This document shows, piece after piece, positions 17,062 through 39,303 of a DNA stretch of 43,665 bases; within the stretch, counting starts at the first letter, position 1; the number at the start of each line of letters is the position of its first letter. The DNA comes from Candidatus Harrisonbacteria bacterium RIFCSPHIGHO2_02_FULL_42_16 (lineage in GTDB: Bacteria; Patescibacteriota; Minisyncoccia; UBA6257; 02-FULL-45-10c): NCBI GenBank assembly GCA_001818695.1, contig MHJG01000023.1:1-43665 (forward strand), written 5' to 3'. The notes under the pieces are model-generated. The model was not told the DNA's origin and made no database searches. It saw only the letters and a list, made by a program, of their open reading frames with translations. Position numbers and translations under genes: made by a program.

Positions 17062-17979
17062 ATGTACGATTTAGTAATTATAGGGGGCGGACCGGCTGGC
17101 GTGGCCGCCGGCGTTTATGCCGCCCGCAAAAAAATAAAAACTTTATTGATTGCCAAAGAATTTGGCGGGCAATCTTTGATTTCGGCGGATATTCAAAATT
17201 GGATTGGCGTGAAAAAATTAACCGGTTTGGAATTGGCGCAAAATTTGGAAGAGCACTTGCGGGCACAGGGGGGGATTGAAATTTTAGATTCAGATTTGGT
17301 TGCTCGCGTGGAGAAAATAAGCGGCGGATTTTTGGTTATAACCGAAAATAAAAAAACTTTTGAAACTAAAACTGTTCTAATTGCTTCCGGTAGTCATCAT
17401 AAAAAACTGGGCGTGCCCGGCGAAGAAAAACTAAACGGCAAGGGCGTGGTTTATTGTTCTACCTGCGATGCTCCGCTTTTTGGCGGAAAAACTGTAGCGG
17501 TGGTTGGCGCGGGGAATGCCGGTTTGGAAGCCGTTCGCGACCTTTTTCCTTACGCAAATAAAATTTATCTTTTAGTCCGAAGCGACAAGATAAAAGGCGA
17601 CCCTATTACTTTTGAATCAGTGAAAGCCAATTCCAAAGTCGTTATTTTATATCAAGCGGAAATAAAAGAAATTTTGGGAGATAATTTTGTTACCGGAGTT
17701 AAATATCTGGATAAAAGCGATAATCGGGAAAAAGAGCTGAAATTGGACGGCGTGTTCGTGGAAATCGGTTCTTCTCCAAACTCTGATTTAGTGAAGGACT
17801 TAGTAAATCTTGATGAGCGCGGCCAAATTATTGTTGCTCATAAAACTCAAATGTCTTCTCTTCCCGGAATTTGGGCCGCTGGCGACGTCAGCGATGTTCT
17901 TTACAAGCAAAATAACATCTCCGCCGGCGACGCCGTAAAAGCTACCCTCAATATTTATGATTATTTGAATAAAAAATAA
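17062..17979 (+). CDS. trxB: thioredoxin-disulfide reductase
   Basis: IIGGGPAGVAAGVYAARK; VYCSTCDAPLF redox motif; VVGAGNAGLEA; GIWAAGDVSD. Confidence 0.92.
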   Translation: MYDLVIIGGGPAGVAAGVYAARKKIKTLLIAKEFGGQSLISADIQNWIGVKKLTGLELAQNLEEHLRAQGGIEILDSDLVARVEKISGGFLVITENKKTFETKTVLIASGSHHKKLGVPGEEKLNGKGVVYCSTCDAPLFGGKTVAVVGAGNAGLEAVRDLFPYANKIYLLVRSDKIKGDPITFESVKANSKVVILYQAEIKEILGDNFVTGVKYLDKSDNREKELKLDGVFVEIGSSPNSDLVKDLVNLDERGQIIVAHKTQMSSLPGIWAAGDVSDVLYKQNNISAGDAVKATLNIYDYLNKK

Positions 17980-18039
17980 AATGAGCTGTTAAGCTAAGTA
18001 TGGACGGATAATTACGAGTGATTTTTTAATTTTTACTAC

Positions 18040-18073
18040 CCCAGTTTTATTTGCTATAGCAAATAAAACTGGG
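18040..18073. repeat. 34-bp perfect palindrome, upstream copy
   Basis: CCCAGTTTTATTTGCTA|TAGCAAATAAAACTGGG; 17-bp arms with no mismatch and no loop. Confidence 0.95.
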
Positions 18074-18095
18074 ATATAGTTATAGTATAGAACAT

Positions 18096-18647
18096 ATGCA
18101 AAATAGATTTGGGTCAGTGCAAAAGAAACTTTTAATTTTATTATATGGACATTTGTCATTGGGTCTTTGCTATACACCCGGACAGCGATCAAAGGTCTTA
18201 CGAGAGATGAGTAAGGAATGGAAACAGGTTAATGAAGAAGCACTACGCCAAGCAATTCAACGCCTTTATAAAAATAGGATGATTGATGTTAAAGAATTGG
18301 CCGATGGTAAAGTTAAAATCATTTTGGAAGATGGCGGGAAAAGAAAAGCTTTAGAATATAAATTAGAAGAAATGGAAATTAAAAAATCGGCCAAATGGGA
18401 CGGGAAGTGGCGGATGGTTTTGTTTGATATTCCCGATAGTGATAAAAAAATTCGGGAAGTATTACGTTTTCACTTAAAACGTTTAGGATTTTATAATTAT
18501 CAAAAAAGTGTTTTTATTTACCCCCATAATTGCAAAGATGAAATTGATTTTTTGATAGAGTTTTATCAAATTCGTCGTTATGTCCGTCAGTTAGTAGTTT
18601 CCGAAATAGACAACGATTTTCATTTAAGAAAAATATTTAAATTATAA
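18096..18647 (+). CDS. PaaX-like transcriptional regulator (winged helix + Cas2-like C-terminal domain)
   Basis: N-terminal HTH (NEEALRQAIQRLYKNRMIDVKEL); C-terminal WRMVLFDIPDSDKKIREVLRFHLKRLGFYNYQKSVFIYP resembles PaaX/Cas2-like fold. Confidence 0.8.
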   Translation: MQNRFGSVQKKLLILLYGHLSLGLCYTPGQRSKVLREMSKEWKQVNEEALRQAIQRLYKNRMIDVKELADGKVKIILEDGGKRKALEYKLEEMEIKKSAKWDGKWRMVLFDIPDSDKKIREVLRFHLKRLGFYNYQKSVFIYPHNCKDEIDFLIEFYQIRRYVRQLVVSEIDNDFHLRKIFKL

Positions 18648-18708
18648 TCTGCATTCTATATTTATAAGTTGTTAACTTTGGTAGATTTAATAAATTAGCG
18701 ATAATTTT

Positions 18709-18748
18709 TACCCCAGTTATATTTGCTATAGCAAATATAACTGGGGTA
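18709..18748. repeat. 40-bp perfect palindrome, downstream copy of the same element
   Basis: TACCCCAGTTATATTTGCTA|TAGCAAATATAACTGGGGTA; 20-bp arms. Confidence 0.95.
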
Positions 18749-18786: not shown

Positions 18787-18844
18787 TGAGGGGTGCATAC
18801 AGGGGATTGACGGATTTTTGGGGATAGATTAGAATTATTGGCAT

Positions 18845-19501
18845 ATGTTTTTGGGTTGGAAAAATAATAATTTAGGAAATTCTAATAGAAATTTTTATCT
18901 TATATTTAAAAAGATATTGAAGTGGGGAGCGGTAGCCGCAGTAGTTTTATATGTTGCGGTAGTGCTTATTCGGATTCCGCATTTTTATAATTTAAGAAAA
19001 ACCGAGGAACAGGTGGCGAAGATTCACGCGACCAAGCTTACTTTGGACGATGTGCTTGGTGTTAATTTACCCCCAGAGCCGGGCGCGCTTGCGGACGTAA
19101 CTATTGAAGGCGTGGATTCTAACCAGAATGGCATTCGCGATGATGTGGAACTCGCCATTTTTAAGGAATATCCGAATTCCGCCAAAACCCGCGCAGTTCT
19201 TTTGCAATACGCGCTGGCGTTGCAGATGGAAATGGCGCAAACGATTGTGAATGCGGGGACTGTTACAGCGGTGGCGGAGGATAGTGGCAGAGCATATATG
19301 TGCATTGGGGAAATTACTTCAAGAGACGATATTAAAAAATTTATTGAAATAAGCGATAGACTACATAGTTTTGTAGAAATTAGACAATTGAATAATGAAG
19401 TAAGAAAGAAAGCCCAAAAAGATTTTTATAATAATAACTTAGGAAGTTATTCTTCTCTGGACGAAACTTGTGATTTAGATATTTCTAAATTATCTAATTA
19501 A
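18845..19501 (+). CDS. hypothetical membrane-anchored protein
   Basis: N-terminal TM helix (WGAVAAVVLYVAVVLIRI); ends 2 bp before the next ORF, so likely an operon. Confidence 0.7.
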   Translation: MFLGWKNNNLGNSNRNFYLIFKKILKWGAVAAVVLYVAVVLIRIPHFYNLRKTEEQVAKIHATKLTLDDVLGVNLPPEPGALADVTIEGVDSNQNGIRDDVELAIFKEYPNSAKTRAVLLQYALALQMEMAQTIVNAGTVTAVAEDSGRAYMCIGEITSRDDIKKFIEISDRLHSFVEIRQLNNEVRKKAQKDFYNNNLGSYSSLDETCDLDISKLSN

Positions 19502-38361: not shown

Positions 38362-39303
38362 ATGAAAAATTTATATCAGATTTTAAAAGAAGCGGAGAAA
38401 AAGAAAATTGCGGTCGGGCATTTTAATGTTGCGGAGACCTCGGTTTTAAAGGCAATTTTTGAGGTAGCAAAGGACTTTGGCGTACCAGTGATTATCGGCA
38501 CCTCTGAAGGCGAAGCGGGATTTTTAGGCAGAAAGCAGGCAGTGGCGTTAGTTAAGAGTTTGCGTAATGAGTATAAATTTCCTATTTTTTTAAATTCCGA
38601 CCACACCAAGTCATTTGATGAGGTAAAAAAAGCCGTGGCCGCCGGTTATGACGCCGTTCTTTTTGACGGCGGAACTTTGCCGTTCGCGGAAAATATCCGG
38701 CAAACGAAAAGAGTTGTTAAGTATGTAAAGTCAAAAAATTCGAAAATTTTGGTGGAAGGTGAACTGGGCAATATCGGCAGTGGTTCTATGATTAGAAAGG
38801 AGTTGCCCAAAGGGGCGGCAATTAAGCCGGAAGATTTAACCAAGCCGGAAGACGCGGCGCGGTTTGTGAAGGAAACCGGCGTGGATATGCTGGCGCCGGC
38901 AGTAGGGAATATCCATGGGATGCTTGTCCCTCACCCTTCAAGTCCTGGCGCAAAGCGCCTAGACCTGATAAAGCGGGACTTGAAGGGTGAGGGATTTGTT
39001 ACCGCTGGCTATGACTATCCTTTAGACATTGATCGTATCCGTGCCATTAAAAAAGCAGTAAAAATTCCGTTAGTGCTTCATGGCGGTTCGGGAAATACCA
39101 ATTCTGATTTTTTGGCGGCGATTGATGCCGGTGTCACTATTATCCATATCAGCACCGAGTTGCGATTGGCTTGGCGAAAAGGTTTAGAACGAGGATTAAA
39201 AGAAAATCCGGAAGAAATCGCTCCTTATAAAGTTTTATTTTCGGCAGTAGAGGCGGTTAGAGAAGTAGTTAATAAAAAGTTGAAATTATTTAATAAGCAT
39301 TGA
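38362..39303 (+). CDS. class II fructose-bisphosphate/ketose-bisphosphate aldolase
   Basis: AVGHFNVAETSVLKAIFEVAKDFGVPVIIGTSEGE; NSDHTKSFDEVKKAV; VEGELGNIGSG; LVLHGGSGN. Confidence 0.93.
   Translation: MKNLYQILKEAEKKKIAVGHFNVAETSVLKAIFEVAKDFGVPVIIGTSEGEAGFLGRKQAVALVKSLRNEYKFPIFLNSDHTKSFDEVKKAVAAGYDAVLFDGGTLPFAENIRQTKRVVKYVKSKNSKILVEGELGNIGSGSMIRKELPKGAAIKPEDLTKPEDAARFVKETGVDMLAPAVGNIHGMLVPHPSSPGAKRLDLIKRDLKGEGFVTAGYDYPLDIDRIRAIKKAVKIPLVLHGGSGNTNSDFLAAIDAGVTIIHISTELRLAWRKGLERGLKENPEEIAPYKVLFSAVEAVREVVNKKLKLFNKH
38927..38994. repeat. inverted-repeat element inside the aldolase gene (19-bp perfect arms + inner hairpin)
   Basis: TCCCTCACCCTTCAAGTCC (38927-38945) / GGACTTGAAGGGTGAGGGA (38976-38994), inner GGCGC-AAA-GCGCC. 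Confidence 0.9.

Follow-up and report, generated by a model that had tools for sequence, protein, structure and literature searches.

Why would a single small gene lie between two long palindromes of nearly identical sequence? This question is raised by a locus in the window, by which we mean the whole 43,665-nt stretch of Candidatus Harrisonbacteria DNA analysed here. The first-pass annotation, made from the letters alone, had proposed either an autoregulatory switch with looped operators or a mobile or selfish unit in which a Cas2-fold protein recognises palindromic ends. Our analysis favours the second proposal in a more specific form. With a probability of roughly 0.6, the unit belongs to a large family of REPtron-like minimal selfish elements in Patescibacteria, which have a Cas2-fold protein in place of the HUH transposase.

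The window locus and its PaaX-like protein

Both palindromes are loopless and lie where the first-pass annotation had placed them, and they have the common core and the single T/A difference mirrored in both arms that it described. The upstream site (18037–18076) is perfect over 34 bp (18040–18073), with one mismatched pair over the full interval, and consists of the core GCTATAGC and the outer boxes CCCCAG/CTGGG. The downstream site (18709–18748), cognate to the upstream one, is perfect over all 40 bp. As also reported earlier, the two centres are 672 bp apart, neither palindrome is followed by a T tract, and the only gene between them is a forward-strand ORF for 183 amino acids (18096–18647). 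Palindrome, gene and palindrome together form the proposed unit of 712 bp (18037–18748). To its left lies a trxB-like gene (17062–17979, forward strand). To its right, the promoter TTGACG-17-TAGAAT (18807–18835, forward strand) precedes a gene for a 218-aa membrane-type protein (18845–19501, forward strand); the lamin-tail gene, previously given as the right neighbour, is one gene further on. In the 753 kb covered of its own genome, five sites of the window's type were found, matching at 33–36/36. The next best match was 24/36 and the shuffled maximum 25/36, which therefore excludes a chance origin. No known Rfam family matches the palindromic sites.

The 183-aa protein matches PaaX_M (Pfam PF20803) with an E-value of 1.9e-23 and 82.8 bits, above the cut-off of 24; this match, at residues 99–169, was the sole domain found. 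Like PaaX, a GntR-type repressor of phenylacetate degradation, the protein combines a winged-helix-like N-terminus with the Cas2-like PaaX_M domain. Unlike PaaX, it falls below the NCBIfam equivalog cut-off for the phenylacetate repressor (TIGR02277; 32.8 vs 264.55 bits), stops at residue 183 without the C-terminal inducer-binding domain, and has no paa genes beside it, its neighbours being the trxB-like gene and secreted-type genes. The Cas2 equivalog cut-off (TIGR01573) was narrowly missed, with 23.0 vs 24.5 bits. In the AlphaFold model (mean pLDDT 90.5) a helical/winged N-terminal part is followed by a Cas2-like C-terminal domain. A Foldseek search with this model returned Cas2 structures at the top (E-values from 8.7e-3), followed by E. 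coli PaaX (8a39) and VapD. Profile and predicted structure together support a Cas2-like fold, though not strongly, the Foldseek E-value being weak.

The protein resembles Cas2, the Cas1-Cas2 integrase and VapD in its ferredoxin-like Cas2 fold and in the conserved D, R, Q and S-V motif, but has an extra winged-helix domain. Asp111 (codon 18426–18428) and Ser138 (18507–18509) are near-invariant. Since the PaaX-like family retains the D (92/92), Q and S residues typical of Cas2, nuclease activity is conceivable from sequence. Cas1 was detected in none of 22 unit-carrying genomes, with the control search positive in 9 of 14, and a Cas1-Cas2-like integrase is therefore unlikely; no CRISPR link was seen either. 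An HUH (Y1) transposase is absent, as the window protein matches only PaaX_M and Cas2.

Paired sites around PaaX-like genes in Patescibacteria

Relatives of the gene were gathered from 151 genomes, and the 80 named loci are all from Patescibacteria or unassigned bacterial bins. For each gene we calculated a pair score from the symmetry of each 36-bp site and the identity between both, with a threshold of 48. At this threshold a cognate pair of ~36-bp sites flanks 148 of 157 complete PaaX-like genes in Patescibacteria (94%), compared with 1/143 neighbouring genes and 2/785 Markov shuffles. On a stricter count, 38/157 PaaX-like genes and 0/131 controls had near-perfect palindromes on both sides. 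The own genome holds five PaaX_M genes, each with its own site pair; a distant second one (contig C9), ~25% identical, lies between an unrelated pair of palindromes of 50 and 42 bp. Nothing of this type was found in viral contigs or in phage or plasmid collections, which yielded one partial PaaX only. In the open-access PMC literature, we found no paper that links bracketing palindromes to PaaX or Cas2-like proteins, and none on PaaX and Patescibacteria together. As far as searched, a PaaX-like family with cognate sites on both sides of 94% of its genes is undescribed, even if the protein is a regulator.

Such a regulator would be a dimeric repressor or activator of the PaaX type with operators up- and downstream of its own gene and a small regulon at single sites elsewhere, the gene merely being often relocated or transferred. 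Characterised PaaX proteins are repressors, and PaaX is known as an autorepressor. In the bracketed homologs the upstream site lies ~40 bp before the start codon and overlaps the likely promoter, which it would be able to block, and autorepression by the PaaX-like protein is possible. However, the downstream site is equally frequent before convergent next genes (49/58) and co-directional ones (80/88), and its role as the operator of the next gene was rejected on this ground. The flanks of E. coli paaX likewise speak against this reading, since they are not bracketed and score 37, the control median. Finally, a loop between the sites lacks helical phasing. The spacing in the window had been read as 64.0 turns of DNA, but among 138 bracketed homologs the centres are 677 ± 65 bp apart without 10.5-bp phasing (R=0.05, p~0.67), so this value is a matter of chance. 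The looping switch thereby loses its spacing support, and it also leaves unexplained the solo copies in convergent gaps described below.

The sites follow a common plan. The core is C-NN|NN-G, with a symmetric C at ±3 in 98% of cases. Symmetry is low in the middle (-5 to -7; 67–71%), where many sites have a non-complementary block, and A/T occupies positions -8 to -11. Symmetry is high again in the outer box (-12 to -17; 86–92%), which is alike in both sites of one locus and unlike across loci. This plan would fit two half sites read by a protein dimer. The E. coli PaaX operator, TGATTC(N27)GAATCA (PMC9493321), also has inverted boxes two to three helical turns apart, and its spacing resembles that of the family's outer boxes, which are ~22–24 bp apart; this similarity counts in favour of a regulator. 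The same plan bears on another explanation, in which bidirectional terminators or RNA-hairpin elements of mRNA ends are gathered around the gene. Long perfect hairpin potential and the position of some solo copies in convergent gaps would suit such elements. However, ordinary genes have no such pairs, many sites have arms that do not pair in the middle block, and the identity of cognate pairs together with the fixed core requires sequence-specific recognition. We rejected terminators as highly improbable on the basis of these sequence-specific pairs and the missing T tract.

The two sites of one locus are 87% identical, whereas sites of different loci share 39% identity. The outer boxes change fast, with 46% identity where the proteins are 60–70% identical. 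Among perfect or near-perfect pairs, 40 differences hit both arms and 12 hit one arm. In addition, certain sites bear private extra symmetric arms, such as the downstream site of L064 with 30-bp arms compared with 20 upstream. A plain operator would not need these extensions, which would be expected if one arm were copied into the other. Quasi-palindromes may also gain mirrored arms passively via template-switch correction. The near-identity of the perfect palindromes, non-specific middle block included, argues for recent copying and against convergently evolved operators.

Solo sites, empty places and relocation

Three of the window-type sites in the own genome are solo copies, located after the rRNA operon (C15), before thyX (C25) and, on C6, in the gap that separates nifS from a divergent gene. 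The PaaX gene on C11 has two solos of its site type, and those on C9, C3 and C7 have their own pair only. When 21 site types were compared with the carrier genomes by BLAST, extra copies were found in most, and solos in most of 20 genomes. The genome G120 contains 15 copies, 13 of them solo, which are 32–36/36 identical, have unrelated flanks and vary in both arms jointly. The first-pass annotation had named palindromes spread genome-wide without a link to PaaX-like genes as evidence against its idea; instead, the solos are of a type that also forms the pair around a PaaX gene of their own genome. This link holds for solo sites generally, with one clear exception beside rnpB in the genome G006, which has no cognate PaaX gene for that site.

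The 16 solos with both neighbours called lie in 4 convergent, 3 divergent and 9 co-directional gaps, and several touch -35 boxes or adjoin promoters. Three genomes of two families (G010 L295, G028 L303 and G006 L311) have a site centred 51–53 bp upstream of rnpB, belonging to two different site types. These sites represent either promoter-proximal targeting or real control; an rnpB regulon as a general rule was discarded, the site being present in only 3 of about 29 genomes. Contact with -35 boxes and the constant spacing before rnpB favour the self-bracketing regulator, and the solos in convergent gaps oppose it. Taking the evidence together, we regard it as possible but rather unlikely. A third alternative is that the protein binds dispersed palindromes in chromosome organisation or maintenance (partition, looping or hairpin protection) and that bracketing concentrates sites at its own gene. 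The 2–15 dispersed high-identity sites per genome and the symmetric DNA-binding design agree with this, but a housekeeping role is hard to reconcile with several independent site types in one genome (five PaaX genes with a separate pair each), with their patchy distribution and with the fast change of their sequences, and we consider it improbable.

The first-pass annotation had suggested looking for an empty trxB site in syntenic genomes, and G006 provides one. There, trxB (80% identical to the window gene, the left anchor) and the same next gene with the promoter TTGACGGATTTTT (the right anchor) are 52 bp apart, and unit and palindrome are absent; the window has about 820 bp in this place. 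Similarly, G006 and G008 have the same divergent gene pair at nifS, with the anchor AGTTGATAGAGTA conserved, but lack the solo between the two genes. These empty places are anchored, but their junctions are not base-exact and show no target duplication, so insertion and deletion are not separable with certainty. Five relatives lack thyX and thus have no place comparable with the solo before thyX.

A flanking gene is common to 11/98 pairs of PaaX-like genes (11%) at 60–70% protein identity and to 10/31 (32%) at ≥70%. Ordinary orthologs keep a neighbour in 17/21 (81%) and 20/20 cases (100%), respectively; this baseline comes from one genome pair (G000 vs G010), and the PaaX pairs include paralogs and span different distances, but the gap is nonetheless large. 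Things are different around trxB, where the copies of one family or clade look vertically inherited. Distant PaaX types are also found in this neighbourhood, inverted once (L049). In several families, distant types lie upstream of the same c0-c1 gene pair at trxB, in either orientation (L023, L025, L040, L047, L049, L056, L058–L060, L067, L087, L092, L098, L106 and L108). The c0-c1/trxB neighbourhood is either a hot spot or reflects a functional link.

A selfish unit with a palindrome-recognising Cas2-fold protein is the best fit to the 94% bracketing, the dispersed solos, the presence/absence and the relocation. From these sequence comparisons we infer dissemination of the sites and movement of the unit, in a sample of one genome per species with no movement event seen between close strains. 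We counted the vertically inherited copies at trxB, the promoter-abutting solos and the rnpB-upstream sites as evidence against the selfish reading.

Comparison with REPtrons and other elements

A REPtron is a gene for a REP-associated tyrosine transposase (TnpA-REP/RAYT) bordered by REP palindromes, with further REPs dispersed (PMC8266576). The PaaX-like unit is similar in that one gene is bordered by palindromes, the cognate palindromes are dispersed as short extragenic copies, and the gene partly behaves as a vertically inherited, domesticated gene. It differs in its protein, which has no sequence relationship to the transposase and consists of a winged helix and a Cas2-like domain (PaaX_M) instead of an HUH tyrosine enzyme. 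Its sites are loopless and symmetric, of a double-stranded DNA type with a CNN|NNG core, and the GTAG/CTAC tag of REPtrons is absent from the sites and flanks shown. Copies per genome are far fewer, and the gene often relocates. Elements of the IS200/IS605 group and palindrome-ended MITEs share the palindromic ends and have minimal non-autonomous derivatives, but the PaaX-like unit has no HUH transposase or TnpB, and its mobile piece appears to be the palindrome.

In the REPtron-like reading, the gene would be flanked by two copies of a palindrome recognised by its own product, and solo copies of this site (36–46 bp) would be spread through the same genome. A protein dimer, whose binding to the site is likely, would contact the outer boxes, about 22–24 bp apart, with its pair of winged helices, and its Cas2-like part would cover the CNN|NNG core. 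The protein may then drive or direct copying of the palindrome, perhaps via an intermediate (a hairpin or a template switch) that lets one arm serve as template for the other, and the piece that spreads would be the palindrome itself. We give about even odds to the full proposal of an undescribed selfish class, widespread in Patescibacteria, in which ~36–46-bp perfect palindromes are mobilised by a winged-helix protein of Cas2 fold in the absence of Cas1 and HUH enzymes, and in which arm-to-arm copying as they spread keeps them symmetric.

If true, the Cas2-type fold, so far known from CRISPR integrases (as a scaffold), toxins and regulators, would also be central to a minimal DNA element in its own right. 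This would be a second, unrelated answer to the REP/RAYT problem, with a bearing on the origin of Cas2, and dispersed palindromes in streamlined CPR genomes would come in large part from such units. The family would also offer a natural set of orthogonal protein/palindrome pairs, and related CPR proteins labelled 'PaaX' or 'Cas2' would need re-reading.

The own genome has two further families of dispersed palindromes, which we treated as unrelated to the window's site type. Palindromes with a GCTATAGC-type core occur at L237:912-951, L253:440-479, L256:1485-1526, L258:11935-11976, L266:1488-1521 and L268:350-389, at least four of them inside MITE-like repeats with hairpins of the CCACGGC...GCCGTGG type. 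The palindrome GGTTCTAATATTAGAACC, with variable symmetric outer arms, occurs at L252:1088-1117 and 2659-2688, L253:351-378, L262:4307-4332 and L011:515-546; in one pair, 1.6 kb apart, the flanks are identical. In the window itself, a repeat at 38927–38945 and 38976–38994 ends in CCCTCACCCTTCAAG/CTTGAAGGGTGAGGG hairpins, and a related motif is repeated near the nifS locus (L011:5540-5790). Finally, a LAGLIDADG endonuclease-like ORF lies beside or inside the 23S rRNA gene of the own genome (L009:5788-6369, contig C15) and is probably an intron-encoded homing enzyme.
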